NCBI RefSeq assembly: GCF_029626235.1
Contig: NZ_JARUBO010000005.1
Span: 6,730,001 to 6,794,000 of the forward strand
Origin: Micromonospora sp. WMMD1120
Lineage (GTDB): Bacteria; Actinomycetota; Actinomycetes; Mycobacteriales; Micromonosporaceae
Direction of reading: 5' to 3'
DNA: 64,000 nucleotides
The position numbers were made by a program, and so were the translations under genes. A model generated the notes under the pieces. It was not told where the DNA came from. It searched no databases and saw nothing but the letters and a program-made list of their open reading frames with translations. Below are positions 2,747-24,516 of the stretch, one piece after another (position 1 is the first letter of the stretch; every line of letters begins with the position of its first letter).

Positions 2747-2794
2747 CGGAGAAACAGTACACCGTTTGATGTACTAACGCGCCGGGTGCGACAC

Positions 2795-5577: not shown

Positions 5578-5578
5578 G

Positions 5579-6565: not shown

Positions 6566-6589
6566 GAGAACGCTCCATTCCTGAGATGC

Positions 6590-6614
6590 GGAACGGTAAT
6601 CGTTTTCGCTAAGT
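6590..6614 (-). promoter_or_regulatory. Zur-like operator before the zinc importer operon
   Basis: On the minus strand the core reads TAGCGAAAACGATTACCG, 25-50 bases upstream of the binding-protein start. It matches the GAAAACGAT core shared with the boxes at 13342-13369 and 22919-22942. Actinobacterial Zur sites known from Mycobacterium and Streptomyces have a similar partly symmetrical GAAAAxxATTTTC centre. Position and gene content support repression by zinc-loaded Zur. Confidence 0.75.
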
Positions 6615-6684
6615 ATCGTCTAATAGTGAGATGACGACACGTGCATGTGTCCCCCGCGGCCGTCGGGAACCGGGCGGTCGAGCC

Positions 6685-7446: not shown

Positions 7447-7483
7447 GGATGCACTCCGGAGGATACGCCGACGGAAGGCCACA

Positions 7484-7507
7484 CGATAACGGAAGCCATT
7501 TCCGAAA
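7484..7507 (-). promoter_or_regulatory. Zur-like operator before the methyltransferase
   Basis: The core GATAACGGAAGCCATTTCCG resembles the mycobacterial Zur pattern GATAATGAAAACCATTTTC with A-to-G changes, and keeps the CGGAA/TTTCCG symmetry. It lies 38-61 bases before the methyltransferase start and just after the end of the upstream gene, a natural promoter position. Confidence 0.6.
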
Positions 7508-7556
7508 GAGTAGGTCATCCCGCCCGGCAGTACCGGCGTATCGCGGTACGTGTCGG

Positions 7557-8747: not shown

Positions 8748-8748
8748 G

Positions 8749-10068: not shown

Positions 10069-11513
10069 GGTGCCTCCACGCGATGGTGAACGGGCCAGTA
10101 CTGCTCGTCGAGGCACCATCGCCACGCGCCACCGTCGCGGTACAGCGCGACCTTGCGGCCGATCGGCTGGCGCAGCGCATGCGTGGCGCTGAAGTCCATG
10201 AGGTAGCCGGCGGTGTTGACGAAGGCCAGCAGATCGCCGAGGCGGGGTCGGGACGGCAGAAAGACCTTGCGCCGAGTGATGAGATCCGATTCGAGACAGA
10301 GGTTGCCGAACAGGTACACCTCCGCGGACCCCACACCGGCCGGGGTCGTACGGTGCACGACGACCGGGTCCATCAGGACCCCGTGCTCCTCGAGACTGAC
10401 GTCACGCGCGTTGCAGTCCAGTCGCACGATCGTGTCACCGTTGGGCTCGTCGCGAACCTCGAGAATGCGCGCCAGCACCACACCGCACTGATCAAGCAGG
10501 GCCCGCCCCGGCTCGACGTGCAGGTCGTACATGTTGTCCAGCAGCAGTGTCCCGAGTGGGCGACGCTGTTCGGGCGCGGCTGTTCGTAGCAGTCGATCGA
10601 GGTACGCGGGCCCGGAGATTGGCCGGTGAGCCGGGTAGAGGTTCAGAGCACCCCGAATGTGGCCCCCCTCGGCGCGCAACCCGTAACCGTGCCCGTTCCA
10701 GGTCAGCGGTGCCCGTCGGCCGAGCACCGCCTCGGTCAACGCGGACGTGTATTGCTCCCACTGCGCGCCGTCGGCGAGGTAGTCGACGCCGAACCCACCG
10801 CCGATGTCGACCGACCAGGGCCGTAGACCGCGCTGGCGACACTGCTCCAGCGCGGCGAGGCAACCTTCCAGCGCCGCGGCCTTCTCCGGCAGCCCCATGG
10901 TGTCGAGATGGAACGCCACGCCGACCAGGTCCAGGACGTCGGCATGTTTGTCGATCACGTCGACGACTTCGCTCGCCGCGTCGGCCGACACTCCGAAACG
11001 GCTGCGACGGCTGTTGAGCTGCACACCCGCCGAGGTGAAACCCGACAGGCGCGCCGTCACCCGCGCGCGCGGCAACGACCGATCGGTGACCAGTGCGGCG
11101 AGCGCCGCCAATTCGCTGACCGAATCAGCGCTGACAGTGACTCCGGCGCGGGCGCAGAGCCAGAGGAACTCCTCGTTCTTCGGCCCGGTCGCCACGATGC
11201 GCTGCGGCACGAGACCGGCCCCGAGCGCGTGCTGCAGCTCGGCGAGCGACGCCACGTCGATCCCCGCGTCGGTTGCGGCGAGTTCACGCACCAGGGCGCT
11301 GGAGCGATTGGCCTTGTGCGCGTAATAGATCTGACCGGAGAGGCGGTGGTCGGAAAAGACCGATCGGAATGCGGCAACGTTGTCCGTCAACTGCTGTGGC
11401 AGGATCACTCCGAGCGGAGATCCCAACGCATCGGTTAATTGTGCCAGTAACGCGGTTTTGTCGAGCGCCGACTGCAGTGTCGGACCGATTCGCGGAGACA
11501 GAAAAAGGGGCAA
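10065..11513 (-). CDS. Y4yA-like PLP-dependent decarboxylase (alanine racemase fold)
   Basis: Predicted 482-residue fold-type III PLP enzyme related to diaminopimelate and ornithine decarboxylases. The PLP lysine is Lys67 in YYAHKANR, the glycine loop is DIGGGFGVDYL, and NLCLESDLITRR resembles the C-terminal active-site Cys/Glu/Asp motif. The sequence best fits the poorly characterised Y4yA group (ATGPKNEEFL motif) rather than LysA itself; that placement is from memory and not tested. It is first in a tight three-gene set with a cysteine-synthase/rhodanese and a desulfurase-like enzyme, suggesting a short pathway that makes a modified amino acid or amine. Confidence 0.8.
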   Translation of the reverse strand: MPLFLSPRIGPTLQSALDKTALLAQLTDALGSPLGVILPQQLTDNVAAFRSVFSDHRLSGQIYYAHKANRSSALVRELAATDAGIDVASLAELQHALGAGLVPQRIVATGPKNEEFLWLCARAGVTVSADSVSELAALAALVTDRSLPRARVTARLSGFTSAGVQLNSRRSRFGVSADAASEVVDVIDKHADVLDLVGVAFHLDTMGLPEKAAALEGCLAALEQCRQRGLRPWSVDIGGGFGVDYLADGAQWEQYTSALTEAVLGRRAPLTWNGHGYGLRAEGGHIRGALNLYPAHRPISGPAYLDRLLRTAAPEQRRPLGTLLLDNMYDLHVEPGRALLDQCGVVLARILEVRDEPNGDTIVRLDCNARDVSLEEHGVLMDPVVVHRTTPAGVGSAEVYLFGNLCLESDLITRRKVFLPSRPRLGDLLAFVNTAGYLMDFSATHALRQPIGRKVALYRDGGAWRWCLDEQYWPVHHRVEAP

Positions 11514-11879
11514 TGCGACTCCTCAGGTGAGCCGTGGCGCCACGGACGCCGCCACCCCTCTCACCCAAAACCCTTCGTGACGACGGCCTGCTTCAACGTA
11601 ACCGATGTTCCGACGCCCGCCAAGAGGTGGCAGCCGAGCGATGGCACGCTTCGCCAGACATACACGAGTGCGCATATATGACAGTTGCCGTCAATGCATC
11701 CGTGGAATATCCAGCCGACCGAAGACGACGGGCCGACATCACCGTCCTTTCTGACCGGAGCACGCTCTACGCCCGGTGCGGGAGATACCCCGAATCCGCG
11801 GTTCAGCCTTTCGCGCGGGCTTCGCAGATTCCGAAGATCCGATCCGTGGACGCGGCACGGCGGAGGTCGGCGCTGGTGG
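11514..11879. other. Upstream region of the PLP-enzyme cluster, with an inverted repeat
   Basis: No coding sequence is convincing here. At 11679-11693 the sequence TGACAGTTGCCGTCA is an interrupted palindrome (TGAC/GTCA arms plus flanking AT-rich bases) about 165 bases upstream of the decarboxylase start. On the minus strand TTGACG in this element could serve as a -35 hexamer. It lacks the GAAAAC core of the Zur-like boxes, so the factor that binds is unknown. Confidence 0.35.
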
Positions 11880-11912
11880 GGCGCGGCGCCTACGGGGAGT
11901 AGGCGCCGCGCC
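11880..11912 (-). terminator. Strong hairpin terminator
   Basis: A perfect 14-bp stem, GGCGCGGCGCCTAC paired with GTAGGCGCCGCGCC, with a five-base loop. It lies 80 bases past the stop of the minus-strand surface-protein gene ending at 11993. No U-tract is evident, as is common for high-GC hosts. Confidence 0.75.
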
Positions 11913-11992
11913 GGTCGCACCCACCACAGCCCACCCGTCCCAGCGGAGCGGACACCGACAACGTGGTCGCGGATCAGGCGCGCTGGAAGGGG

Positions 11993-12646
11993 TCAGGAGA
12001 GAACTTCGAAGGTGAAGGTCCTGGCACCCGAGCTGACGGTGGCGCCGCTGGAGGCGAGCTTGCCGGTGACTTCGAAGGTGACCGCGTAGGTGCCGGCCGC
12101 GTCGAAGCCCCAGTTCGCGTGGGCATGGGTGTTGTAGTTGACATTGAGGCTGTCGGGTAGGCCGTTCCCGCTGTCGAAGAGCACAGTGGGGGCGCCTCCG
12201 GAGACGGTGTAGACACTGAAGCCGGCAGGGCCGGAGACGCTGGTGAGCTTGAAGGTGACCCGGTTGTTCTGGAAGGTGCCGCTGGGCACCTCGGTGGTGT
12301 TCCACCCGGCCCACAGGAGCCCGGCGGTGCTGGACTGCGGCAGGACCCACGCCTGGCCGCCGGTGCCGAGGAAGGACCAGGCCGAGGTGCCCGGCACGGT
12401 GATCTTGGCCGTGTTCGGCACCCGGAAGAGCACGTCGGCGGGGTTGCGTTCGACGCTCGTGGAGCCCGTGCCGTCCAGGACGTTGACGGTGAGCGCGCCG
12501 GCGGCGTAGTCGACGTCGATCACGTCGACATGACCGCTGGAGAGCACCAGCGGCGCCGCGGCGACGGGCGTGCCGGTTCCGACGAGCAGCGTGGCGGTCA
12601 CGATGAGACCGGCGATCAACCGGCGGCGGATACGCACGGCGCTCAC
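11993..12646 (-). CDS. Secreted choice-of-anchor-M domain protein
   Basis: Predicted 217-residue exported protein. A signal peptide of about 30 residues ends near TPVAAAP; the rest is one anchor-repeat domain (TIGR03769-like) opening LSSGHVDVIDVDY and closing with NTHAHANWGFDAAGTY. The paired His of the HAHANW motif could bind metal. No membrane anchor or sorting signal is seen, so it should be released or bound non-covalently. The GTG start overlaps the stop of the preceding homologue (GTGA). Proteins of this family occur beside anchored-repeat ABC transporters, as here; their biochemical role is not established. Confidence 0.85.
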   Translation of the reverse strand: MSAVRIRRRLIAGLIVTATLLVGTGTPVAAAPLVLSSGHVDVIDVDYAAGALTVNVLDGTGSTSVERNPADVLFRVPNTAKITVPGTSAWSFLGTGGQAWVLPQSSTAGLLWAGWNTTEVPSGTFQNNRVTFKLTSVSGPAGFSVYTVSGGAPTVLFDSGNGLPDSLNVNYNTHAHANWGFDAAGTYAVTFEVTGKLASSGATVSSGARTFTFEVLS

Positions 12647-13299
12647 GCCTTGACCGCGAAGCGCAGCGTGGTGGGGGCGGAGGTCACCTGCTGGCCGGTG
12701 GCGACCAGGGTGCCGGTGGCGCGCACGGTCACCTTGTAGTTGCCGGCCTGGTCGAACGCCCAGTTGGCGTGGGTGTGGTCACCGGCGGTCACCGTGATGT
12801 CGTCCGGGAGACCGTCACCGCTGTCAGCCAGGACGGTTGGCTGGCCGACAGCGTTCTCGGTGTAGATCGCGAGCTGGCCGGGACCGCTGATCGACTGCAC
12901 GGACAGCGTCAGCGCGTCGTTGGCGAAGACTCCGGCTTCGATCTCCTCGGCAGAGATGCCCGGCCAGATGAGGTTGGCGTTCTGGATCTGCGGCAGGACC
13001 CACACCTTTGACACGCCCGGGGTGCCCAGGAAGGCGAAGGCGGGGTCGGCAGGAACGGTGATCCTGGCCTGGCGCTTGACGACCAGCTTGACCTCGTCGG
13101 CGTCGTACTCGATGTCGTTGTCCTCGTCGTGGACGCCGACCTCCAGCGTGCCGGCCTCGTAGGCCACGTCGACGAGGTCGAGATGTCCGGTGTTGAACAC
13201 CACGGCAGACGTGGTGGCGGCCTGGGCGGGCAGGGCCGTGGCGACCAACGCCAGGCCCAGGACGCCCGAGGTCAGCAGATTACGCATGGTGTTACGCAC
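12643..13299 (-). CDS. Secreted choice-of-anchor-M domain protein behind a Zur-like box
   Basis: Predicted 218-residue exported protein, a diverged paralogue of its downstream neighbour. The signal peptide ends near LPAQAAT; the domain opens FNTGHLDLVDVAYEAG and ends GDHTHANWAFDQAGNY. An acidic stretch (DEDNDIEYDADE) near residue 60 is unusual among the homologues here. I chose the GTG at 13299 because GAGAGGAG lies 7 bases upstream; an internal ATG at 13287 is too far from it. A Zur-like box lies 43 bases upstream, so this two-gene unit is probably induced by zinc starvation. Confidence 0.85.
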   Translation of the reverse strand: MRNTMRNLLTSGVLGLALVATALPAQAATTSAVVFNTGHLDLVDVAYEAGTLEVGVHDEDNDIEYDADEVKLVVKRQARITVPADPAFAFLGTPGVSKVWVLPQIQNANLIWPGISAEEIEAGVFANDALTLSVQSISGPGQLAIYTENAVGQPTVLADSGDGLPDDITVTAGDHTHANWAFDQAGNYKVTVRATGTLVATGQQVTSAPTTLRFAVKA

Positions 13300-13341
13300 G
13301 AAGAGACTCCTCTCCGGCGACGGTCCCGAGTGGACCGCCAC

Positions 13342-13369
13342 TTAATGAAAACGATAGTCGTTTCAGTTA
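13342..13369 (-). promoter_or_regulatory. Zur-like operator before the two secreted anchor-M genes
   Basis: The most symmetrical box of the set: TGAAAACGATAGTCGTTTCA, with TGAAA/TTTCA and CGA/TCG arms. It lies 43-70 bases upstream of the GTG at 13299 and overlaps the last codons of the permease gene ending at 13363. That gives the secreted pair its own promoter inside a longer same-strand gene run. Confidence 0.82.
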
Positions 13370-14280
13370 GCGTGCGGTAGGGCTGGGAGAGGATTCGGAG
13401 AAGCGTCATCGCTGAGTTCAAGCCCGCCGGGGCGTCGCCACCGTCGGGTCAGGAGGCCGTGCCGCGGGGCGATCAGCCATGCGGCCAGGAAGACCACTGT
13501 GGCGATCAGCACGATGGTGCCGCCGACCGGTGTGTCGAAGCTCCAGGACAGGTACAGCCCGACGGTCGCCGAGATGCCGCCGATCAGCGGGGCGAGCAGC
13601 ATCATGACGCCGAGCCGGTCGGTGAGCAGGCGGGCTGCCGCCGCAGGAGTGATCAGCAGGGCCAGGACGAGAATGTTTCCGATGGTCTGCAGGGAGATCA
13701 CCACGGCCAGGGTGACCAGGACGTAGAGCACGATGTCGAGCCAGAAGACGGACAGCCCCATCGAGCGGGACATCTCCCGGTCCAGGCAGACCGCGACGAA
13801 TTCCTTGTGCAGGGCGAGCACCAGGCCGAGGATGACCAGGCCGGTGCCCCCGACGACGTACAGGTCCCGGTCCGGGATGCCGGTGATCGAGCCGAAGAGG
13901 AACTGCTGCAGCGATCCGGCGTAGCCGGGGGCCTGCGAGATGATCACAATGCCGAGCGCGAACGCGCCGACCAGGAAGACCCCGATGATCGAATCCTCCT
14001 TCACGCGCCGGTTCTGCGCGAAGATCGCGATCAGCAGGGCGGTGGCGACACCCGCGACGGCGCCACCGAGCACCAGGCTGCCCTGCAGGACGAAGGCGAC
14101 CGCGATACCCGGAAAGACCGCGTGCGCCACCGCGTCACCGATGAACGCCATGCCACGCAGAACGACGTAGCAGCCGATGACGCCGCAGACGATGCTCGAC
14201 ATGACCGCGATCGCCAGCGCCTTCGGCAGGAACGCGAGGTCGGGGTTGAGCAGGTCGGTGAGAAAATCGGTGATCGACAT
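13363..14280 (-). CDS. Anchored-repeat-type metal ABC transporter permease
   Basis: Predicted 305-residue ABC-3 family permease with eight or so membrane segments. The loop LRGMAFIGDAVAHAVFPGIAV is the family signature, and LLITPAAAARLL lies near residue 210. It matches the permease subunit of anchored-repeat ABC systems (TIGR03770 type), related to zinc and manganese permeases. The C-terminal 25 residues are charged and cytoplasmic. The start ATG shares one base with the ATPase stop (TGATG). It works with the ATPase and the chimeric binding protein encoded upstream in the same operon. Confidence 0.9.
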   Translation of the reverse strand: MSITDFLTDLLNPDLAFLPKALAIAVMSSIVCGVIGCYVVLRGMAFIGDAVAHAVFPGIAVAFVLQGSLVLGGAVAGVATALLIAIFAQNRRVKEDSIIGVFLVGAFALGIVIISQAPGYAGSLQQFLFGSITGIPDRDLYVVGGTGLVILGLVLALHKEFVAVCLDREMSRSMGLSVFWLDIVLYVLVTLAVVISLQTIGNILVLALLITPAAAARLLTDRLGVMMLLAPLIGGISATVGLYLSWSFDTPVGGTIVLIATVVFLAAWLIAPRHGLLTRRWRRPGGLELSDDASPNPLPALPHAN

Positions 14281-15023
14281 CAGGTTGCCCTCACGAGCTT
14301 CAGCAGTGCGGAGGTGGCGCTCACCCCGAAGGTCTTCGTCCACAGCTCGGCGTCCTGCAGGTCCGCCGGCTGCCCGTCGGCGATGATCCGACCGTTGAGC
14401 AGGACCAGACGGGTGCAGGAGTCCACCGCCGCGACGAGATCGTGCGTGGTCATCAGCACCGCACGGTCCTCTCTCGCCAGGCTGGTGAACAGGTCGCCCA
14501 GCAGTTCCTGCGTGGGCATGTCCAGTCCGGTGAACGGCTCGTCCAGCAGCAGGATGCGCGGCGCGAGCGCGAGGGCGCGGGCGACCAGGACGCGTTGCCG
14601 TTGCCCGCCGGACAACTCACCGACCGGCCGCTGCCGTAACCCGGTCAGCCGAACCCGGTCCAGCGCGTCGCCGACCGCCCGCCAGTCGGCGACGCCCGGT
14701 CGGCGCAGTAGGCCGATGCGGCCGGTCCGGCCGCTCATCACGGCCTGCTCGACCGAGATGGGAAAGTCCCAGGTGAACTCGTGGCGCTGCGGGACGTAAC
14801 CGATGTCGGACCGGCCGGGACGGGCGGGCTTGCCCTGCACCGTCACGGTGCCGCCGCGACTGCGGGTCAGTGCCAGGATGGCGCGGAGCAGAGTGGTCTT
14901 GCCGGCGCCGTTGGGCCCGAGCAACCCGACCAGTTCGCCCGGCTCCAGGTGCAGCCGGATGTCCCGCAGGACCGGTCGGCCGCCGAGGTCCACGTCCAAC
15001 CCGTCGATGTCCAGCGCTCTCAC
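14280..15023 (-). CDS. Anchored-repeat-type metal ABC transporter ATPase
   Basis: Predicted 247-residue ATPase. Walker A is GPNGAGKTT, the Q-loop reads YVPQRHEFTWDFP, the signature is LSGGQRQR, Walker B is ILLLDEPF, and the switch is TTHDL. It resembles the ATPase of the importer at 4807-5577 but is clearly a separate member (TIGR03771 type). The GTG start overlaps the stop of the membrane-anchored repeat protein (GTGA). It should energise the permease encoded directly downstream. Confidence 0.92.
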   Translation of the reverse strand: MRALDIDGLDVDLGGRPVLRDIRLHLEPGELVGLLGPNGAGKTTLLRAILALTRSRGGTVTVQGKPARPGRSDIGYVPQRHEFTWDFPISVEQAVMSGRTGRIGLLRRPGVADWRAVGDALDRVRLTGLRQRPVGELSGGQRQRVLVARALALAPRILLLDEPFTGLDMPTQELLGDLFTSLAREDRAVLMTTHDLVAAVDSCTRLVLLNGRIIADGQPADLQDAELWTKTFGVSATSALLKLVRAT

Positions 15024-16012
15024 CGCTGGCCCTCCGACGGTACGGCGGCGCGTTCCTGTTCGGCCCGGCGCCTCGCGCCGCGTCCCCGTAGCAGCAGGAG
15101 GACCAGTCCGACGGCGAGCAGGGCGGCCGCGCCTCCCAACGCGATGAGCAGCAGCGTCGTGGACGGGCCGGTCGGCTCGTCGTCCGCGGCCCGCTCCTCG
15201 CCGGTCGGTGCCCGCCCTGCTGCGCTGGGAAGGTCCGCAGTTGCGGCGAGAGCCTCGTCGGCGCTGGTGGTGTCGCCCACGGCGAAACGCAGCGTGCGGG
15301 TCGCCGACACCGTCTCACCGTCGACCAGGTCGGCCGACGCCTGAACCGCGACCAGGTAGATGCCCGGTGCGGTGAACACCCAGTTGGCGTGGGTATGGGT
15401 GTTGACCTCGGCCCAGAACGGCTGCGCCGTGGAATCGGCGGAGCGCCACAGCGGCTGGGGTGCGGCGAAGTTGCCCGACTGCAGGTACGTGGTGAGGGTG
15501 CCCGGTCCGCGTACGCCGAGCAGGGTCAGGGTGACGCCACGGTCGATGGTCTGCATCACCCGGGGGTCCTGGGTGTTCCAGCCGAGCCAGACCACGCTCT
15601 GGTTCTGGGTCTGCGGCACCACGTACACCCGCCTGCCGGCCTCGACGCCGAGGAAGGCGTACGCCGGGTCGTCCGGAACGGTCTGCAACGCCGCGTCGGA
15701 GACCCGGAGCAGGGTCTCGTCGGGGTTACGCCACACCGGTCGCGCCTGCGTGCCGTCGTGGATCAGCAGTGTCCACTGGTTGTGGACATAGCGGGGGCCC
15801 AGGTCGACGTGACCGGTGGCGAGCTCCGCCCGACCGGTGGCCAGGGGCTGGTCGGCGGCGATCGACTGGCCAAGACCCGGTGTCGGCTCCTCGGCCCGAG
15901 CCGGGGTCTGCGTCGTGGCCAGCACGATGACCATGGCCACGGCACACCGCAGGATCGCGGTGCTCGTACGAGGGCGTCGGCGCGCCCGTCCTGCCGTCAC
16001 TGGCTCCTCCAT
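15020..16012 (-). CDS. Membrane-anchored choice-of-anchor-M protein of the ABC locus
   Basis: Predicted 330-residue type I surface protein. A signal sequence (AILRCAVAMVIVLATTQTPARA) is followed by one anchor-M domain with TGHVDLGPRYVHNQWTLLIHDG and NTHTHANWVFTAPGIY, an acidic/Pro-rich linker (about residues 235-280), one membrane helix (LLLIALGGAAALLAVGLVLL) and a basic tail. There is no LPxTG motif, so it is held by the helix alone. ATG at 16012 shares a base with the binding-protein stop; a GTG one codon earlier is an equally possible start. It probably presents the repeat domain at the membrane next to the transporter. Confidence 0.86.
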   Translation of the reverse strand: MEEPVTAGRARRRPRTSTAILRCAVAMVIVLATTQTPARAEEPTPGLGQSIAADQPLATGRAELATGHVDLGPRYVHNQWTLLIHDGTQARPVWRNPDETLLRVSDAALQTVPDDPAYAFLGVEAGRRVYVVPQTQNQSVVWLGWNTQDPRVMQTIDRGVTLTLLGVRGPGTLTTYLQSGNFAAPQPLWRSADSTAQPFWAEVNTHTHANWVFTAPGIYLVAVQASADLVDGETVSATRTLRFAVGDTTSADEALAATADLPSAAGRAPTGEERAADDEPTGPSTTLLLIALGGAAALLAVGLVLLLLRGRGARRRAEQERAAVPSEGQR

Positions 16013-17592
16013 CACTTGTCCGTCAGGCAGTCGTGCAGCGATTCGGCGTTGAACCGCATCATCTCGAGGTAGGTGGTGACGTCCCGGTCCAAGGTGTCGC
16101 CGTAGATCGCGCAGATCCGCAAACCCTCCTCGCGGGCCACCTCGGTCAGGGTGGTGGATCGGGCTGCCAGATTGGGTTCCAGGAAGACGGCGGGAATCCT
16201 CAGGTTGCGGATCGTCTCGGTGAGCCGGCGGCGGTCGGCGAGACTCGGCTCGGTGGCGGGGTTCGGGGTGACGAAACCGGAAATCTGGATCCCGTACGCC
16301 TGGCCCAGGTAGCCGAAGGCGTCGTGGGTGCTGACCAGGTGTCGGCGCGAGAGCGGGATACGGGCGATGGTGTCCCGGACCTCGGTGTCGAGCGTCTCCA
16401 GTTCCCGCACGTAGGCCGAGGCGTTCGTGCGGTAGTCCGTCGCGCCCTGCGGGTCGGCACCGATGAGGGTGTCCCGGATCAGCTCCACGTAGGAGATGGC
16501 GTTGCGGACGTTCTGCCACAGGTGCGGATCGATCTCGCCGTGCACGTGCTTGCCGAGCACCGCCTGCGGAAGTTGGTAGACCTGGGTGCCGGGCCGGCCC
16601 AGGAACCGGAAACGGCGGTCACCGGGCACCTCCAGCAGTGCCTTGTTGGGCACCTCGATCACCGTGCTGGCCGGGTCGTACACCCGCTGGTTGGCCTCGC
16701 CGCTGCCCTCCGGGTCGGCGAACAGGTAGAGCCGCCGCTCGTCGAGGTCGACAGTGACGTCGGCGTGCCCGGAGTTCAGCACCTCCGCGCCCGCCATCCC
16801 CGGCACCGAGTGCGGGTCCACCCCGACGGCGAAGGTGAACACCTGCTCCCCCATCGGAACAGGGGCCGTGTCGGGGGTGACCGCCAACTGCGCCCGCATG
16901 GTCAGCCGGTAGACGCCGGGCTTGGTGAACGCCCAGCTCATGTGGGTGTGCGCGTCGGGTGGCAGCGTGGCGGTGTCGTCCCGGTACCCGTTGGCGGCCT
17001 CGAACCCGTCGCCCGAGTCGACGGAGAACGACGGGTTGCCGAACGACTCGGTCAGGTACGCGAACACCCTGCCCGGCCCGTTCGCGGCGGTCGCGCTGAG
17101 CAGCACGTCGGAGGAACGGTTCGCGCCCTGCGCCGCACCGGTGCCGCGTACCCGCATGCCCAACCAGATGGTGTCCAGTGACACGTCCTCGACCAGCGGG
17201 ATGATCTCCGCGGCGTACTTCACCGCTCCCTCGGCCAGCGAGATGTTCGGTACGCCGTCGCGCAGGTTCGCGTCCAGCGCCTTGATGACGGCCTGCTCCT
17301 CCAGAAGCAGGTAGTTGCTGAACGCCACGTCGGCGTAGACCACATCCCGAACGTCCCGCAGCGACGGCTCGTAGCTGTGCGGGTCGGCGTTGTCGGGCAC
17401 CAGGGAGGTGACGGCCACCCGCTCTCCACCGACGTTGCTCACCAGATCCCGCAGGATTCCGGTGGTCGTGATGACCTGGAGCCGGTCGTCGGCGGCGGTC
17501 AACGCCACCTCCGACCGACAGCCGGCGATCAGCCCCACGATCAGCAACGGCAGGATCGCCTGCCGCAGCCGTGGCACGACCAGCGGGTTCAT
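16012..17592 (-). CDS. Anchored-repeat-type ABC transporter substrate-binding protein with inserted anchor-M domain
   Basis: Predicted 526-residue lipoprotein (lipobox LIAGC, Cys25). The N-terminal third is a ZnuA-like lobe with NADPHSYEP, whose His should bind metal. An anchor-M domain (about residues 130-330, with DAHTHMSWAFTKPGVY and NSGHADVTVDLDERRL) is inserted where ordinary zinc-binding proteins carry their His-rich loop. The ZnuA fold then resumes with HVHGEIDPHLWQN and STHDAFGYLG, supplying further metal His residues. This matches the TIGR03772 architecture. Starts at the ATG overlapping the LPRTG-protein stop. Zinc is the likely cargo given the setting; manganese is possible. Confidence 0.9.
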   Translation of the reverse strand: MNPLVVPRLRQAILPLLIVGLIAGCRSEVALTAADDRLQVITTTGILRDLVSNVGGERVAVTSLVPDNADPHSYEPSLRDVRDVVYADVAFSNYLLLEEQAVIKALDANLRDGVPNISLAEGAVKYAAEIIPLVEDVSLDTIWLGMRVRGTGAAQGANRSSDVLLSATAANGPGRVFAYLTESFGNPSFSVDSGDGFEAANGYRDDTATLPPDAHTHMSWAFTKPGVYRLTMRAQLAVTPDTAPVPMGEQVFTFAVGVDPHSVPGMAGAEVLNSGHADVTVDLDERRLYLFADPEGSGEANQRVYDPASTVIEVPNKALLEVPGDRRFRFLGRPGTQVYQLPQAVLGKHVHGEIDPHLWQNVRNAISYVELIRDTLIGADPQGATDYRTNASAYVRELETLDTEVRDTIARIPLSRRHLVSTHDAFGYLGQAYGIQISGFVTPNPATEPSLADRRRLTETIRNLRIPAVFLEPNLAARSTTLTEVAREEGLRICAIYGDTLDRDVTTYLEMMRFNAESLHDCLTDK

Positions 17593-19265
17593 GCGTCTGC
17601 CGTCGAGAGGCCGGCACGGCGGCGACGGCCCAACACCACCAGCAGGACCCCCGCCGCCACGAAGACGATGCCGACCACTCCGGCGGTCATCACCCAGCCA
17701 GCACCGGTACGCGGCAGGGGCCCTCCCCCGCCCTGGGCCCCACCGCCGTTCCTGTCACCGTCAGCGCCACTGCCACTGCCACTGCCACTGCCACTGCCGG
17801 AACCGAAGCCGCTGTTCGGATCGGTGCTGTCGCCAACGGCGAGGGTCAGCGTCTTGGTGTCGGTGACCGCCTTGCCGGCGCTGGTGGTGCCGTTCATCTG
17901 CACGGCGAGGCGGTACAGGCCGGGCTTGCTGAACGCCCAGTTGCCGTGCGCGTGGGTGTTCAGCGGAACGCTCAGTTGCTGCGGGAACGCCTTGGCCGAG
18001 TCGAACAGCACGTCGGCCTTGCCGAACGAGCCGGTCAGGAAGAGGGCGAACCGGCCGGGCCCGTTGACGCCTTTCAGCGTCCAGGTGACGTTGCCCTTGA
18101 TCCCCGACACGACGGACTCGTGCTGGGTGTTCCAGCCGGGCCAGACGATCCCCGCCTGCTGGGACTGCGGCAGCAGCCACACGGCCTCGCCCTGCTTGCC
18201 GAGGAAGTCGGCGCCGGCGGGCACCGTGATCTTCGCGTTGTCCTTGACCTGCAGGACCACGTCGGCGGTCTCCCGCCAGACCGGAGGACTCGTGCGGTCA
18301 TCCTTGATCCGGATCGTCCACGTGTCTCCGGACAGTTGGGGGCCCATGTCGACGTGCCCGTCGGCGATCACCTGGCGGGCACCCGTGGCGGTGGTGGCCG
18401 CCGCCTTCGCGGCCGCCGCCGGCGGGGCTGCGGCGGGTTTCGGCGCAGCCGCGGGCGCCGGCGCAGCCGCGGGCGCCGGCGCAGCCGCGGGCGCCGGCGC
18501 AGCCGCGGGCGCCGGCGCAGCCGCGGGCGCCGCGAACGCGCGCGCTGCCGACTGCTCGCCGGACCCCGGCACCTGCTTGGCGGGAGGGGCAAGCGGCGCC
18601 TGCTCGACCGGGTTGATCGCCGGCACGCGCACCCGGTACGTCGTCTCCGCGCTGACCTTCCGGCCGGAGCGCAGGGTGGCCGAACCGGTCAGGGCCAACC
18701 GGTAGTCACCGGCCGCGTCGAAGGCCCACACCACCCCGCCGGTCCGCGTCGCCACCGGTAGCTGCGCCGTCCGCGCCAGACCCGGGCCGCTGCCGAAGAG
18801 CGGAGTCGCCGTGCCGAGACCGGACACGGTGTACGCCGTGAACGTTCCCGGGCCCTCGACCGAACGTACGGTGAGGGCCACCGTGTCATCGGTGACGACG
18901 CCGGGGCGTACCCCGGTGGTGTCCAGCGCTGGGAACCCGCTGTCGCCGGCGGACAGTGACCACACGGCGTGCCCCGGCGAACCGAGGAACGCGAAGCTCT
19001 TCCCTGCCGGCACTCGGCCGGCCAGCCCGCCAGCCGGGCCGAGCACCACCTCGGCCGGGTCGTGTCCGGCCGCGTCGTGGGACACCTGCGCGGCGTCGCG
19101 CAGTCGCAGCGACATCGAGTCACCGTTCAGGGCGACGGACACCAGGTCCGCGCCGGCCGCGGTGACCGCGGCCGGTTCCGCGGCTGCCGGCGCACCCCCG
19201 AGGGCCAACGCCAGTACGGCTAACGCAAGGCCGGCGGCACCGGCGCGCATGGTTCTCATCCTCAT
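17589..19265 (-). CDS. LPRTG wall-anchored two-domain choice-of-anchor-M protein
   Basis: Predicted 558-residue cell-wall protein (TIGR03773-like). After a signal peptide comes a degenerate anchor-M domain (residues 35-220; its HTHANW motif is replaced by VVWAF). Then follow a Pro/Ala linker built from five DNA repeats, a canonical anchor-M domain (about 290-480; ADGHVDMGP and [16 protein letters not shown]), a Gly-Ser tract, and the sorting signal GPLPRTGAG with a membrane helix and Arg-rich tail. A sortase should attach it to peptidoglycan; no sortase gene is in the window. It overlaps the binding-protein gene by four bases. Likely role: relay of metal across the wall to the lipoprotein (inference). 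Confidence 0.87.
18442..18531 (-). repeat. Five tandem 18-bp repeats encoding a Pro-Ala linker
   Basis: Unit ggcgcagccgcgggcgcc repeated five times without mismatch. On the coding (minus) strand it gives a six-residue PAAAPA unit between the two anchor-M domains of the LPRTG protein. A second low-complexity tract (cactgc units, about 17768-17797) encodes the Gly-Ser spacer before the sorting signal. Copy number is likely to vary between strains. Confidence 0.9.
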
Positions 19266-19293
19266 TGCCTGCTCCAGACGGGTTCGTGGTGGT

Positions 19294-20394
19294 TCATCGA
19301 CGTCGTGCCGCTCCGGTCGCGGCGGAGGCGGCGACCTCGCCGTCCTCCGACGCCCGTTCGGTCTGCCGGCCGGCCTCGGAACGCCCCTCCTCCCGGGCGG
19401 CGGCTACCGCCCGGGCGAGCTGTCGGGCCCGCCGTCGGCGGGCGGCGATCAGTGCCCAGCCGCCGAGGGCGAGCAGGACCAGCAGGGCCAGCTGGGGCCA
19501 GGGCACCGCCCAGGCAGTGGCGCGCGCCGTGCCGCTCTGCGGCTGCGGGTCGAGGACCTGGTCGCCCACGGCGGCGGGTGTGACGGCGGCGTTCACGGTC
19601 AACCGGAACAGTGGCGGCACACCCGTCATGCGTACGGTGGTGGTCAGTTCGCCACCGGGCAGGATCTCCGGCAGTGCCGCCCCGTCGGTCGAGCGCCGGC
19701 CGAGGCCGAACGGCCCGGCCGCGGTGAGCGTGGGCCGCCCGGTGAGCCGGACGTTGCCGGTGTTGCGGACGGTGAAGGTGGCGGTGAGTGTGCCGCCGGC
19801 GAGGGGGTTCAGCGAGCCGGTGTGCCGTACCTGAAGGTTTTCGACGGTCATCGCTGGTTGCAGCTCGCCGCTCACCCGCAGGTAGATCCGCGCGCCGACC
19901 CGGTGGTCGACGGCGACCTGGTTGCCCTGTGCGTCTGCCGCCGTGGAGGCGAGCGAGGCGACGATCCCACCGGCGTGGTCCCCGGGCGTGGCATTGTTCG
20001 GCACGGTGAGCGTGAACGGGATGTCCAGGCGGGACGTGGACGGGATGGTCACGGTGCCGCCGGTGAAGCGGACCCAGGCGCCGACGTCGGTGGGCTTCTG
20101 ACCACCGGCCAGCAGGTCGAACCCGCCCTGCGCGGTGGTGAACGCGTCGCTGGCATAGAGGTTCAGGGTGAGCGGGCGCGTCGAGTGGTTGGTGACCGCG
20201 ACGTAGTCGGTCACTGTGGCGCCGGGATCGAGCTTGTAGGTGAACGCCGGCCGACCGTTCGGGCCCTTCGCGCTCGACGGCGCCACCCCCCACGTCGCGG
20301 CAGACGCCGGCGGTGCGGAGGGCGCCGGCGTGGGCGGTGCCGGAGCCGCGCCGAGCAGGACGATGCCGGTGGCGATGGCGACGAACAGACGCAT
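19294..20394 (-). CDS. DUF916-like (WxL-partner) membrane-anchored surface protein
   Basis: Predicted 366-residue protein: signal peptide (AIATGIVLLGAAPAPP), then Ig-like regions resembling the peptidoglycan-binding DUF916 domain of Gram-positive WxL systems (WGVAPSSAKGPNGRPAFTYKLDPG; VTNHSTRPLTLNLYASDAF; VRNTGNVRLTGRPTLTAAGP), one membrane helix (LALLVLLALGGWALIAA) and a basic, Ala/Arg-rich cytoplasmic tail. In Firmicutes such proteins bind the wall and associate with WxL-domain partners; the gene just upstream here ends in a WxL-like domain. It lies 28 bases before the LPRTG gene and probably leads the six-gene operon down to the permease. The start at 20394 has only a weak ribosome site. 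Confidence 0.78.
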   Translation of the reverse strand: MRLFVAIATGIVLLGAAPAPPTPAPSAPPASAATWGVAPSSAKGPNGRPAFTYKLDPGATVTDYVAVTNHSTRPLTLNLYASDAFTTAQGGFDLLAGGQKPTDVGAWVRFTGGTVTIPSTSRLDIPFTLTVPNNATPGDHAGGIVASLASTAADAQGNQVAVDHRVGARIYLRVSGELQPAMTVENLQVRHTGSLNPLAGGTLTATFTVRNTGNVRLTGRPTLTAAGPFGLGRRSTDGAALPEILPGGELTTTVRMTGVPPLFRLTVNAAVTPAAVGDQVLDPQPQSGTARATAWAVPWPQLALLVLLALGGWALIAARRRRARQLARAVAAAREEGRSEAGRQTERASEDGEVAASAATGAARRR

Positions 20395-20432
20395 GGTGGG
20401 GATGGATTCCGTTCCTGGATACGAGGGGTGAA

Positions 20433-20511
20433 GCGGGGTGGGCGGGTCGCGGCAACGGCCCACCCACCCCGCGGCCGTCCGGTGGCACGGTTCAGCGCCG
20501 GGCCACCGGAC
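20433..20511 (-). terminator. Two consecutive terminator hairpins
   Basis: Just past the WxL-like gene end: first GTCCGGTGGC pairing with GCCACCGGAC (20477-20486 with 20502-20511), then GCGGGGTGGG with CCCACCCCGC (20433-20442 with 20463-20472). They separate the WxL-like gene from the DUF916-led operon, which therefore needs its own promoter or read-through. Confidence 0.7.
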
Positions 20512-20523
20512 AGGTTCGGGCGA

Positions 20524-21996
20524 TCAGATCGCGGTGAGGGTGAGGGTCGCGGAGTACGTCCCCGCGGCCGTCTCGGTGGGCAGGCTCAGCCGCAGACCCG
20601 CGCCCAGTTGCGCGGTACCCCGCCCGGCACCGTTCGGCGCTGCTCCCAGCACCGCGCTGTTGCCGAGACCGCCGCCGGAGCCGACGACGTACGGCGTAAC
20701 CTCCGGACCAGCGACGACACCCTGCCCGGCGCCCTGGGTGATCACCCGAGGGTCCCAGCCGAGGTAGCCGGAGCTGAACGTCGCACCGTCCGGCCCGGCG
20801 AAATCCGCCGGGATCTGGCCGGACGCGCTCCACCCCGGTTGCCCGGCGCGCGTGTCGGTCACCGTGACCGGGCGGAGCTCACCGTTGCTCTCCCACCGGT
20901 CAGCACCGGCGGTGAGCTGTGCCGGTGGCAGCACCACGGCACGGTCGTCCGGGTTGACGCTGATCACCAGAGAACCCTGCGTCTCGTCGATCGACGCGGT
21001 GATCGTCTGTGAGGTGCCCGGCTCCTGCGGCGGGAACGCCACCCAGAGGGACACGGGTTCGCTGGTCGCTACCACCTCGTGACCGTCGCCGTACAGCTTG
21101 GCCACGTACTCGCAGGCGTTCAGCTCCCGGGTGGCCGTGAACGAGTAGCTCGCTCCCGCCTCACCCGCGATGATGCTCCAGTCGTCCGTGCCGGGGCACC
21201 TGCTGAACCAGTGGTAGTGGTCCAGCTCGGTCTGCGGCGTCTGCACCGCGTTGAGCGTCACCGTGTCGTTGGGCTGGTACTCGTCGGCCATACCGCGGAC
21301 CGACAGGCTGACCTCCGGCCCACCGCCGGACAGCTCGCCGACGACGAACGAGTAGTCGACCGGCCCGGTGCTGACCGTCGTGCCGTTGGTCAACGTCGCG
21401 TCGGCCTGGAACTTCAGGGTGTAGCTACCCAGCGCGCCGAACGCCCAGTTCGAGTGCGCGTGGGTGTGCACCGGCACGTCGATCGCGTCCGGCAGGCCGT
21501 CGTCGGAGCGGAACTTGATGATCGGACCGCCGAACGAGTCCTGGGTGAACAGCGTGACGCTGCCCGGTCCCTGCACGCCGACCAGGCTCAGCCGCACCCT
21601 GTTTCCCTCGAACACCCCCGAACCGAGCGTCGTGGTGTTCCAACCCGGCCAGAGCAGATCCGGGTCCTGGGTCAACGGGAGCAACCAGACCTGGCTGCCC
21701 GCCGGCCCGAGGAAGGCGAACCGAGGATCGTCCGGGACGGCCATCGCCGCCTCCGGCAGAACCTGGAACGTCACGTCGGCCGGGTCCCTCGTCACCGAAG
21801 GGCTGACCGTGTCGTCGTGCACCTTCAACGACAGCGCACCACCCTCGTAGTGCACGTCGACCGCATCGGTGTGCCCCTTGGACAACACCACCTTCTCGGC
21901 CGCCGACGCAGCGGTCGGCGCCAGCACCGTGCCGGCGACCACCACCGCCCCGGCAACCAGGGCCGCGAAACCGCGAGCCCTCAGAGTCGCATTCAT
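20524..21996 (-). CDS. Secreted choice-of-anchor-M protein with C-terminal WxL-like domain
   Basis: Predicted 490-residue exported protein. The signal peptide ends near TAASAAEK; an anchor-M domain spans about residues 32-240 (SKGHTDAVDVHYEGG; VHTHAHSNWAFGALGSY). It is followed by an Ig-like region with two cysteines (HWFSRCPG...LNACEYVAK) and a C-terminal module with PGWSASGQIPADF, YLGWDPRV and AAGTYSATLTLTAI, which reads like a WxL wall-binding domain. ATG at 21996 sits behind AAGGGAAGG. Only 55 bases separate it from the S14 gene, so it may be read from the Zur-controlled L28-L33-S14 promoter. No membrane anchor is present, so wall attachment would rely on the WxL-like part. Confidence 0.83.
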   Translation of the reverse strand: MNATLRARGFAALVAGAVVVAGTVLAPTAASAAEKVVLSKGHTDAVDVHYEGGALSLKVHDDTVSPSVTRDPADVTFQVLPEAAMAVPDDPRFAFLGPAGSQVWLLPLTQDPDLLWPGWNTTTLGSGVFEGNRVRLSLVGVQGPGSVTLFTQDSFGGPIIKFRSDDGLPDAIDVPVHTHAHSNWAFGALGSYTLKFQADATLTNGTTVSTGPVDYSFVVGELSGGGPEVSLSVRGMADEYQPNDTVTLNAVQTPQTELDHYHWFSRCPGTDDWSIIAGEAGASYSFTATRELNACEYVAKLYGDGHEVVATSEPVSLWVAFPPQEPGTSQTITASIDETQGSLVISVNPDDRAVVLPPAQLTAGADRWESNGELRPVTVTDTRAGQPGWSASGQIPADFAGPDGATFSSGYLGWDPRVITQGAGQGVVAGPEVTPYVVGSGGGLGNSAVLGAAPNGAGRGTAQLGAGLRLSLPTETAAGTYSATLTLTAI

Positions 21997-22050
21997 ACCT
22001 TCCCTTTCAGCACCGCGCGTACCTGGGCGCGGTGGGTACATGTGGTGACA

Positions 22051-22356
22051 TCACCAGGACGCCTTGCGCACCCCGGGCATCTCGCCACGTAGAGCCAGCT
22101 CCCGGAACCGCACCCGGGACAGCCCGAACCGGCTGAGCACCCCGCGCGGGCGGCCGTCGATCTGGTCGCGCGAGCGCAGCCGCACCGGGCTGGAATCCCG
22201 CGGCAGCCGGCTGAGCCGACGCACCGCATCGGCGCGCGCGCCCGGGTCGGTGTCCGGATGGGCGACCAGCCGCTTCAGCTCCGCCCGCCCCTCGGCGTGC
22301 CGGGCTACCAGTTCCTCGCGGCGCGCCTGCCGGTTGACCAGGCTCTTCCTGGCCAT
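22051..22356 (-). CDS. rpsN: Ribosomal protein S14, zinc-free paralogue
   Basis: Predicted 101-residue S14 of the long, zinc-independent type. It contains no cysteines, whereas the short zinc form has two CxxC pairs. The C-terminal [25 protein letters not shown] is the conserved S14 block. It is third in the L28-L33-S14 set, its ATG sharing a base with the L33 stop. Replacing zinc-containing ribosomal proteins with such copies under zinc limitation is an established Zur response. Confidence 0.95.
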
Positions 22357-22523
22357 CAGCGGGCCTCGCGGAACTCGACGTGCCGGCGGACGACCGGGTC
22401 GTACTTCCGCAGGACCAGCCGGTCCGGGTCGTTGCGACGGTTCTTGCGGGTGACGTACGTGTAGCCGGTGCCGGCGGTGCTGCGCAGCCGCACGATCGGT
22501 CGTACGTCGGTCTGGCGGGCCAT
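22356..22523 (-). CDS. rpmG: Ribosomal protein L33, zinc-free paralogue
   Basis: Predicted 55-residue L33 ([36 protein letters not shown]...). The four cysteines of the zinc-ribbon form are absent. Its start shares one base with the L28 stop and its stop shares one with the S14 start, so all three are translationally coupled. A longer reading upstream is out of keeping with the family and lies inside L28. Confidence 0.95.
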
Positions 22524-22759
22524 CAGAGCTTCACCCCCCGGGCGCGCAGCTCGGCGACGACCTTCTCGATGCCCTTGCGGTCCACGGTCTTCAGCGCCTT
22601 CGTCGTCAGGGTGAGGCTGACCCATCGGCGTTCCGACGGCAGCCAGTAGCGGTGGTTCTGCAGGTTCGGGTTCCACCTGCGGCGAGTGCGTCGGTGGGAG
22701 TGGGACACGGCGTTACCGAAGCTCGGCTTCGCGCCGGTGACGTCACAACGTCGGGACAC
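22523..22759 (-). CDS. rpmB: Ribosomal protein L28, zinc-free paralogue
   Basis: Predicted 78-residue L28. The N-terminus [15 protein letters not shown] keeps one Cys but has Thr where zinc-binding forms carry the second Cys of CxxC, so it is unlikely to hold zinc. It leads the L28-L33-S14 operon and has a Zur-like box 23-51 bases upstream of the start. Confidence 0.95.
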
Positions 22760-22781: not shown

Positions 22782-22810
22782 TGACGATAACGACAACGGT
22801 TTTCAGTTTT
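22782..22810 (-). promoter_or_regulatory. Zur-like operator before the L28-L33-S14 operon
   Basis: On the minus strand the centre reads CTGAAAACCGTTGTCGTTAT. It keeps GAAAACC and a GTTAT half as in the other boxes. Position just upstream of zinc-free ribosomal genes is a textbook Zur target. Confidence 0.8.
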
Positions 22811-22918: not shown

Positions 22919-22942
22919 GAATGACAATCGTTTTCATTAACT
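22919..22942 (+). promoter_or_regulatory. Zur-like operator before the degenerate CobW/L31 operon
   Basis: Core TGACAATCGTTTTCATTA, close to palindromic (TGA-AA / TTT-TCA arms), 16-39 bases before the ATG at 22958. It is separate from the divergent box at 22782-22810, so the two operons have their own operators. Confidence 0.8.
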
Positions 22943-22957
22943 GTCGAGAGGAGCGTG

Positions 22958-24259
22958 ATGTCCTCGTCACCACAGGCCCCGACCAACGTCGTGACAACAG
23001 ACGCTGACACCCGCCCGTCGTTGACCGTGCTGTCCGGCTTCTGGCCGGCGGCGACCTTCGCCGTCGCACGGGCGTTGCTCGCCGCCGACGAGTCACTGCT
23101 GCTGGTGCGCCACGACCTCACCGGGATCCGCGACGGCGTCGTGCGCCGGGTGGTGCGATCGAGCGCCGGCATCATCGAGGACGAGCAGGTCGACCTGAGA
23201 CACGGCTGCGTCTCCTGCACCCTGCGCGAGGACGTGCTGCCCACCCTCGTTCGACTCGCGCGCGACCAGCCCGGTCGGGATCTCGTGCTGATGCTGCCCG
23301 AAGTGGTGGAACCAGAGGCGGTCGCCGCGGCCTGCGCGCACTGCCTCGTCGACGGCGCCCCGATCACCGAGCTCATCCGCGTCGACTCCTACGTCACCGT
23401 CATCGACGCCGAACACCTGCTCGACGGCCTCGCCAGCACCGACGACCTCCGCGCACTCGGCATCCAGGCCGCCGACGACGACGACCGGGCGCTCGCCGAC
23501 GTCGTGGTCCGCCAGATCGAGTACGCCGACACACTGCTGCTCTGGGGTCAGTCCCCGGAAGGCGCCTTCGACACCAGCCGACTGTCGGTCCTGCTACAGC
23601 GGATGGCGCCCTGGGCGGTACACATCCGCGTCGACGGTGACCTCGTCGACGCCAGCACGCTGACCCGTCAACTGCGCCACACCCATCGACACCGGCCGGA
23701 GACACCAGGGCTCCTCGCCCGCGGGCTGCAGGGCTACACCCTGGGCTCCCATGAGCCCGAAGGCGACTGCGGGGTGGTCTCCGCCGTCTTCCGCGCCCGC
23801 CGCCCGTTCCACCCACAACGCCTGCACGACGTCCTCGAGGACGTCAACGCCGAGATGATCCGCGCCCGGGGTTACCTCTGGCTGGCCAGCCAACCTGACA
23901 CCGTGGTGGCTTGGGAATTCGCCGGCGGCGGTCTGGCCATGGGATCACTCGGCCACTGGCTGGTGAGCCTGCCCGAGGACCGTTGGGAGCACGTCGAGGA
24001 CCAACGCCGCCTCGCCGCCGCCCTGGACTGGGACCCCTACTACGGCGACCGCCACCAGCACCTCGTCTTCATCGGCCTCGACGTGGATGCCGTCGACCTA
24101 CACCGCACCCTGACCCGCTGCCTGCTCACCGACGCCGAACTCGCCGACGGCGAAGAGGTGTGGCGCACCTACCACGACCCGTTCGCCGGCTGCTTCCCCC
24201 TCGGGGTGGAGGAACTGGCAGACACCGACACCGAAACCGAAGGAGCGCAACCCGCATGA
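22958..24259 (+). CDS. CobW/ZNG1-family protein with degenerate GTPase motifs
   Basis: Predicted 433-residue paralogue of the intact CobW GTPase at 25797-27029; the C-terminal CobW domain is well kept ([28 protein letters not shown]). The G-domain is eroded: the Walker A stretch [10 protein letters not shown] is replaced by [14 protein letters not shown] by LWGQSPEG, and the CxCC metal motif GCICC by GCVSC. GTP binding in the canonical way is therefore unlikely, while some metal ligands survive. I chose the ATG after AGGAG over the GTG one codon earlier. The stop overlaps L31 (ATGA). Likely a Zur-induced metal-handling or regulatory partner. Confidence 0.88.
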
Positions 24260-24516
24260 AGCCCGGAATCCACCCCGACTACCGCCCCGTCGTCTACCGC
24301 GACAAGGGCGCCGACTTCGCCTTCCTCACCCGCTCCACCGCCACCAGCGACCAGACCGTCGAATGGTCCGACGGCCGGACCTATCCCGTCATCGACGTCC
24401 AGATCTCCTCCGCCAGCCACCCCTTCTGGACCGGCAGGCAACGCCTGCTCGACACCGCGGGCCGAGTCGAGAAGTTCCGCCAGAAGTACGCCCGCCGCGG
24501 GCCACAGGGCAGTTGA
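24256..24516 (+). CDS. rpmE2: Ribosomal protein L31 type B (zinc-free)
   Basis: Predicted 86-residue L31B ([30 protein letters not shown]). It lacks the CxxC pairs of type A L31, so it needs no zinc. The ATG overlaps the stop of the degenerate CobW gene, placing it under the Zur-like box at 22919-22942. It should replace zinc-containing L31 on ribosomes and release zinc. Confidence 0.96.

Follow-up and report, generated by a model that had tools for sequence, protein, structure and literature searches.

Why should a single metal importer be encoded together with six proteins that carry the same surface domain, and at which layers of the envelope would these proteins be held? The question is raised by a stretch of 64,000 nucleotides (hereafter, the window) from Micromonospora sp. 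WMMD1120 (contig NZ_JARUBO010000005.1, positions 6,730,001 to 6,794,000), whose 7.15-Mb genome has its nearest relatives, by protein identity, in Micromonospora. On the minus strand, from 22041 to 11993 of the window, nine genes running in the same direction encode, in this order, a protein with choice-of-anchor M (anchor-M), immunoglobulin-like (Ig-like) and WxL-like domains, a DUF916 protein, a TIGR03773 protein, a TIGR03772 protein, a ZnuE-like protein, TIGR03771 and TIGR03770 proteins and two secreted-type anchor-M proteins (Table 1). The reading that we judge probable is that this is a zinc-starvation operon in which surface anchor-M domains feed zinc to an anchored-repeat ATP-binding cassette (ABC) importer. 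The core of the system, a Znu-type anchored-repeat zinc importer, is already known from Corynebacterium diphtheriae; what appears to be new is the recruited pair of a WxL-like protein and a WxL-interacting-type (WxLIP) partner, which would display a copy of the zinc-binder within a zinc operon. Among the matches listed in the open-licence PubMed Central literature, we found no description of a link between WxL and a zinc importer.

A preliminary description, made from the sequence alone, had recognized a one-directional gene set with an ABC importer and had counted eight genes and five anchor-M proteins. The direction and the importer stand, and the counts become nine genes and six anchor-M proteins with seven domains. 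As that description implied, all five anchored-repeat NCBIfam models, TIGR03769 to TIGR03773, score above their curated cut-offs in the operon, the binding protein reaching 829.4 bits with TIGR03772 (cut-off 350.45). TIGR03769 (cut-off 30.9 bits) is found in six operon proteins at 48.1 to 80.2 bits, and all 7 of its matches in the genome (E ≤ 0.001) fall in this operon, 6 of them above the cut-off. The anchor-M model (choice-of-anchor M/P_ac_wall_RPT) gives 90.5 to 262 bits in the six proteins, with a cut-off of 55. A survey of the phylum with TIGR03770 is uninformative at a loose E-value because ordinary ABC-3 permeases match as well (213 of 296 genomes at E ≤ 0.001, 3 of 296 above the curated cut-off). 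The earlier statement that no mechanism had been described for such systems has been out of date since 2025, when the C. diphtheriae homologues were published (PMC12445094).

The six anchor-M proteins carry the set of anchors first proposed for them, as judged from motifs and helices: two are of secreted type, and the others have a WxL-like domain, an LPRTG motif, a C-terminal helix or a place inside the binding protein. Since the LPXTG model gives the LPRTG protein 12.8 bits, below its cut-off of 15.9, the anchor call is based on the motif and the helix. Signal peptides were assigned by visual inspection, and in the secreted-type protein at 12643-13341 no hydropathy peak above 1.6 was found, which weakens its secreted call. 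The pair of motifs HxD and HxHxxW is kept in 6 of the 7 domains, and the statement that all but one retain HxHxxW is thus borne out. In the exception, the first domain of the LPRTG protein, RTGGVVW replaces HxHxxW and GHxD is absent. To place these features in context, we compared 81 loci (80 related loci and the window). In two-domain LPxTG proteins the first domain is without both motifs in 28/29 and the second has both in 29/29; the exception in the window is therefore a conserved domain, probably a structural one. Of 424 anchor-M domains outside ZnuA, 358 carry HxD together with HxHxxW, 53 carry neither and 13 have one without the other, so that the motifs are kept or lost together in 411, as expected of one shared site, although the relatedness of the loci inflates this count. 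Display of one domain family at several depths of the envelope is supported by the anchor types, and the sequence supports the layered layout well. Leaving ZnuA aside, the 325 anchor-M reading frames of the 81 loci fall into 121 in which no C-terminal anchor was seen, 127 whose anchor is a helix alone, 33 with LPxTG plus a helix and 44 with a WxL-like domain, these being rough counts from stop-to-stop frames and simple rules with close relatives kept (for example L062 and L063, which have the same strain number).

The binding lipoprotein has a ZnuA fold in which an anchor-M domain is inserted, and this insert is a circular permutant in 81/81 loci. Swapping its halves back raises the single-hit score in every locus (median 56 to 105 bits), whereas the same swap applied as a control to 376 regular anchor-M domains lowers it (210 to 122). 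The insert occupies the position of the His-rich loop in the second zinc-type binding protein of the window. Cys25, in a lipobox recognized by eye, is invariant in the 48 aligned sequences (48/48), as are His72, His357, His423 and Asp499, a His/His/His/Asp set of the zinc type. His423 aligns with a Glu of the Listeria manganese binding protein.

What regulates the operon points to the same metal. The transcription unit probably starts further upstream than the nine genes, at paralogues of ribosomal protein genes presumed to be rpmB, rpmG and rpsN; a presumed type B rpmE paralogue lies on the other strand. Against a 19-base Zur consensus, the palindrome TGAAAACGATTGTCA in the gap between the divergent operons has 2 mismatches on one strand and 3 on the other, a fit seen at one site in the window and in 0 of 100 shuffles. 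The same site fits the published actinobacterial Zur motif taaTGaNAANNNTTNtCANta quoted in PMC5472717, and the core pattern of our scan is the published actinobacterial Zur box as quoted there. The second palindrome has a counterpart ahead of rpmB in Micromonospora relatives. The motif occurs exactly at 25 places, spread over 23 of the 81 loci, and with one mismatch or none at 111 places in 62 loci. In five Markov resamplings it never occurred exactly, and the near sites numbered 3, 5, 8, 4 and 0. The 111 sites precede rpmB (16), cobW alone (14), the anchor-M/WxL-like gene (16), ZnuA (7), other single anchor-M genes (23) and other profiled genes (17), with no profiled gene within 500 bases of the remaining 18. 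Sites ahead of the WxL-like gene occur in clusters of differing gene order (Salinispora, Jiangella, Actinoplanes, Asanoa and Lentzea among those listed). The Salinispora site may be an old rpmB site left in place; in other clusters the WxL-like gene sits elsewhere, which suggests that its tie to the Zur motif does not come from one ancestral operon. A weak site ahead of the last two anchor-M genes, with two mismatches to the core motif, is partly conserved in Micromonospora relatives and was not used as evidence; the C. diphtheriae cluster likewise has an internal second zinc promoter (PMC12445094). In actinobacteria, published Zur regulons include ribosomal paralogues of this kind as well as YciC-type GTPases (PMC2823685), and here a COG0523-type GTPase gene runs divergently from the operon. 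The imported metal is therefore very likely zinc, given the Zur-box palindromes, the cysteine-poor ribosomal paralogues, the GTPase, the His third ligand and the zinc studies published for the C. diphtheriae homologues, which together support the metal acquisition originally proposed.

The first two genes of the operon form a WxL-like/DUF916 cassette. A DUF916-like membrane protein had been noted in the set, and PF06030 (DUF916) indeed matches it at 39.8 bits, above the Pfam cut-off of 27.3; the model also matches all 37 aligned WxLIP-type sequences (E ≤ 0.001). The profile of these sequences weakly matches the solved EfmWxLIP1 (E 0.0023), and the C-terminal membrane helix has a hydropathy of 1.97 at residue 323. 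The anchor-M/WxL-like fusion is present in 41/81 loci, always within 6.5 kb of ZnuA (41/41) and always with a WxLIP gene (41/41), the two genes lying within 400 bases on the same strand in 38/41 (exceptions L020, L036 and L040); it is on these 81 loci that the linkage rests. In five loci DUF916 was detected and the fusion was not: the DUF916 frame of L010, L012, L016 and L065 is at an end of the examined stretch, and L031 combines DUF916 with a WxL-like frame in which no anchor-M domain was detected. Genera with the cassette include Micromonospora, Salinispora, Plantactinospora, Actinoplanes, Phytohabitans, Asanoa, Jiangella, Kibdelosporangium, Actinophytocola, Lentzea and Actinokineospora. 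It is absent from the Streptomyces, Microbacteriaceae, Solirubrobacter and Conexibacter loci, and from some relatives of positive strains (two Lentzea albidocapillata loci and Micromonospora sp. CPCC 205371).

An independent survey covered 121 genomes of the family, our own included, and found the ZnuA family in 40. Inspection by eye gave 32 of the 40 a strong WxL-like match (E ≤ 3e-54) no more than about 7 kb away; seven have none there, and the remaining one (G403) is split over contigs. The 33 strongest WxL-like matches are those 32 and that of G403, and many weaker ones lie elsewhere. The WxL-like domain itself matches 79/121 genomes, with up to 10 matches in one, many of them in long proteins off zinc loci. 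In the genome studied here there are two matches (E ≤ 0.001), one at this locus and the other at C5:1761715, where a second WxL-like/DUF916 pair (about 1761162-1762185) has no detected anchor-M domain and its WxL-like frame shows a weak, sub-cut-off match to metallophosphoesterases. We considered whether WxL/WxLIP is peculiar to zinc loci, and rejected this because of the matches in 79/121 genomes, mostly off-locus among those listed, and the second pair in the same genome. Judged by these matches, the WxL-like domain is a common actinobacterial module, one branch of which appears to serve zinc loci; no description of a large actinobacterial family of this kind was found among the matches listed in open-licence PubMed Central literature. 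A pair of small and large WxL proteins was not found at the locus (E ≤ 0.001), where a very divergent copy could be missed.

How might these parts work together? Zinc-loaded Zur would repress the operon through the two upstream palindromes, and zinc shortage would lead to production of the cysteine-poor ribosomal proteins and the Znu-type importer, and to an envelope coated with anchor-M domains, of which most would bear a single HxD/HxH zinc site. From the anchors we infer a localisation at successive depths: two proteins would be secreted, one bound covalently to the wall by sortase through LPRTG, one held by the membrane helix of the ZnuE-like protein and one contained in the lipid-anchored binding protein. 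In the sixth placement an anchor-M domain would stand on an Ig-like spacer carried by the WxL-like domain, which, in this organism, would be tethered without a covalent bond to the DUF916 membrane protein encoded next to it. The surface domains would capture wall zinc and raise its concentration by the importer, with the last hand-over made by the helix-anchored protein and the permuted insert, the latter substituting for the His-rich loop with which ordinary ZnuA proteins gather zinc. A directional relay of zinc inward is plausible.

Several results count against this reading, and they are given here with the explanations they favor. The cassette must be dispensable, as 35/81 loci have neither of its genes, 23 of these being sound negatives (at least 7 kb examined on both sides of ZnuA). 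The C-terminal domain of its first protein could be some other beta-rich wall domain, not homologous to WxL, with a different role for the DUF916 neighbor. WxL (PF13731), named earlier for this protein, has no match to it at E ≤ 1, and a precomputed PF13731 tag is found on 1 homologue among the 120 listed. The two Trp-x-Leu motifs read W404-S-A and W429-D-P, the Leu of both being absent. In the AlphaFold2 model (mean predicted local distance difference test 84.2, predicted template modeling score 0.48) the protein is beta-rich, and its fold-search matches are dominated by antibody Ig domains, with no WxL structure among those listed; the WxL-like profile likewise finds no WxL chain among solved structures, where its matches are weak and unrelated (best E 0.033, PsaK). 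Nor does the WxLIP protein show DUF3324 (HBD), at E ≤ 1 in the window or at E ≤ 0.001 in the 37 sequences, assuming that the model is in the library. Yet PF13731 does match 38/59 aligned sequences at E ≤ 1 (best E 2.4e-5, best score 24.8 bits with a cut-off of 25); eight homologues scanned singly all match, at 14.0 to 24.8 bits and none at 25, and 7 of them share one register (profile positions 84-90 to 207). Both Trp are invariant in 59/59, the domain is C-terminal, WxLIP accompanies every fusion and a second pair exists in the genome, so that we regard a non-WxL domain as unlikely. The proposed WxL link holds as a gene cassette, but the scores of the domain stay below the Pfam cut-off, and we therefore call it "WxL-like." Less probable still, indeed very improbable, is that the importer takes manganese or another metal, with zinc control being indirect. 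The binding protein is also near manganese binding proteins (MntA, E 3.8e-38; NF053842, 166 bits), but the zinc model AztC scores higher at 206 bits, all of the models being below cut-off (350 for AztC), and we rejected manganese on the grounds of the third ligand, His rather than Glu, and of the Zur-box, with which the cysteine-poor ribosomal paralogues and the zinc work on homologues agree.

The main rival of the relay is storage, in which wall anchor-M proteins would act as a surface zinc store or sponge (for buffering, denial to rivals or later release) with no directional transfer, an explanation that we consider possible and clearly less probable than feeding of the importer. The work on C. 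diphtheriae (PMC12445094) bears on both. There, ZnuAECB, ZnuF and ZnuG are Zur- and zinc-regulated, and ZnuE, ZnuF and ZnuG show zinc-dependent thermal shifts, but a His-to-Ala ZnuE still shifts with zinc and the ZnuG mutant is ambiguous. With the transporter present, single deletion of znuF or znuG has no effect on low-zinc growth. It follows that the metal site and the relay are unproven even in that species. Loss of the whole znuF-445 locus lengthens the lag phase. When the transporter is gone, ZnuF and ZnuG behave as zinc sequesterers: a strain lacking znuAECB regained its peak growth once znuF-445 was removed, and growth fell when ZnuF or ZnuG was expressed, the histidines of ZnuG being required. 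The authors themselves name sequestration and storage as possibilities. Against a store stand the encoding of the surface proteins alongside the importer with Zur-like sites ahead of them, and the expectation that a store be made in zinc excess, not in starvation. In addition, ZnuE, which has the same motif, is needed for full low-zinc growth, its deletion impairing growth and the His-to-Ala form failing to complement (PMC12445094).

A more ambitious version of the zinc-feeding reading, which we put forward tentatively and think rather unlikely as a whole, would have a complete radial relay built from one domain, with the WxL-like/WxLIP pair as an exchangeable tether and like-to-like docking of anchor-M domains onto the permuted copy that replaces the His-rich loop; WxL/WxLIP would then be a general actinobacterial display system and its helix an ordinary membrane anchor. 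Even the narrower reading would tie to zinc uptake, in soil actinobacteria, a Firmicutes surface module so far read as a host-adhesion device, and the finding of this module in a soil actinomycete, within a zinc operon, is an argument that the WxLIP helix can be an ordinary bacterial anchor. It offers a testable explanation for the "reversed" motif of ZnuA, namely a permuted zinc domain in place of the His-rich loop, and bears on what the C. diphtheriae work left undecided, whether zinc proteins at the surface supply the importer or deprive it.

Table 1. Features of the window, with positions counted from its first letter.
Feature	Position	Strand	Support
Anchor-M/Ig-like/WxL-like protein	20524..22041 (start may be 21996)	-	NF038134 186.8 bits; TIGR03769 51.4 bits
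Its anchor-M domain, residues 52-234	21340..21888	-	H57, D59, H194, H196 invariant in 59/59 aligned
Its Ig-like spacer domain, residues 243-338	21028..21315	-	
Its WxL-like C-terminal domain, residues 345-505	20527..21009	-	W404, W429 invariant in 59/59
WxLIP protein: signal peptide (by eye), DUF916/WxLIP_PGBD, second Ig-like region, C-terminal helix (19441-19512)	19294..20463	-	PF06030
TIGR03773 wall protein, two anchor-M domains (first without metal motif), LPRTG (17703-17717)	17589..19265	-	477.2 bits (cut-off 190.3)
TIGR03772 substrate-binding lipoprotein (ZnuA fold) with inserted permuted anchor-M domain	16012..17592	-	
Circularly permuted anchor-M insert, about residues 140-345	16558..17175	-	H215, H217, H276, D278 invariant in 48/48
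ZnuE-like anchor-M protein, C-terminal membrane helix (15089-15157)	15020..16012	-	NF038134 205 bits
ATP-binding subunit, TIGR03771	14280..15023	-	379.9 bits (cut-off 268.8)
Permease, TIGR03770	13363..14343	-	474.6 bits (cut-off 296.8)
Secreted-type anchor-M protein, no C-terminal anchor seen	12643..13341	-	NF038134 179 bits
Secreted-type anchor-M protein, no C-terminal anchor seen	11993..12646	-	NF038134 178 bits
Zur-box-like palindrome, gap between divergent operons	22922..22936		TGAAAACGATTGTCA (minus-strand reading)
Second Zur-box-like palindrome, upstream of rpmB	22791..22805		One mismatch to TGANAANNNTTNTCA
Weak Zur-box-like site ahead of last two anchor-M genes	13346..13360		Two mismatches to core motif
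Presumed rpmB paralogue (L28), one cysteine	22526..22759	-	
Presumed rpmG paralogue (L33), no cysteines	22359..22523	-	
Presumed rpsN paralogue (S14), no cysteines	22051..22356	-	
Presumed type B rpmE paralogue (L31), no cysteines	24256..24516	+	
Divergent COG0523-type GTPase (MRF/ZigA-like)	22955..24259	+	NF047431 302.3 bits (cut-off 375), NF038288 233 (cut-off 600), both below
Second importer, binding protein, His-rich loop and His third ligand (by eye)	5579-6565	-	
Second importer, ATPase	4807-5691	-	
Second importer, permeases	in 3923-5242 and 3100-4068	-	
Methyltransferase	6685-7881	-	
SufS-like	7557-8747	-	
SbnA-like pyridoxal phosphate enzyme plus rhodanese	8749-10125	-	
Diaminopimelate-decarboxylase-like	10065-11513	-	

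Next to the operon, at 3100-11513 on the minus strand, the window holds a second zinc-type metal ABC importer. With the neighboring enzyme genes it possibly forms a metallophore or metal-ligand cluster. No match to a 15-base Zur pattern, with 3 mismatches at most, was found in 1-13345.

Among known systems, staphylococcal Isd is comparable in how it works, one family of haem-binding NEAT domains being placed at each envelope layer down to the transporter; it differs in using haem and another domain, and in its demonstrated transfer. The closest in gene content are znuAECB and znuF-znuG of C. diphtheriae (PMC12445094, PMC6711530), which share the transporter family, HxD/HxH in ZnuA, a membrane protein ZnuE that carries the motif as well, two-domain and sortase-anchored wall proteins, Zur control and two zinc-regulated promoters. 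Its ZnuF is wall-bound without any known sortase, and the reversed motif order reported for its ZnuA is the circular permutation described above. The window differs in the ribosomal paralogues ahead of the operon, the WxL-like/WxLIP pair and the two secreted-type single-domain proteins; WxL and DUF916 have 0 occurrences in the main text of PMC12445094. WxL proteins have been described as nearly all from Lactobacillales and Bacillales, with a host-binding role proposed for WxLIP and its helix proposed to enter host membranes (PMC10599100). Those clusters have in common with the window a C-terminal WxL-like protein adjoining a DUF916 protein with a C-terminal helix; the pair in the window is instead actinobacterial and in a zinc operon, with one WxL-like protein, no small WxL found, no DUF3324 match and the Leu of the WxL motif not kept. 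One published link of DUF916 genes with a surface metal-binder is provided by the Ang-2 copper-binding loci of Actinomycetota, near which such genes often lie; these loci differ in handling copper with a HupE/UreJ-type permease, and the available text of that report mentions no ABC importer or anchor-M domain (PMC12537917). Finally, the pneumococcal Pht proteins with AdcAII, which differ in sequence (HxxHxH motifs) and in anchoring, are likewise surface zinc-binders proposed to pass zinc to a binding protein (as discussed in PMC12445094).

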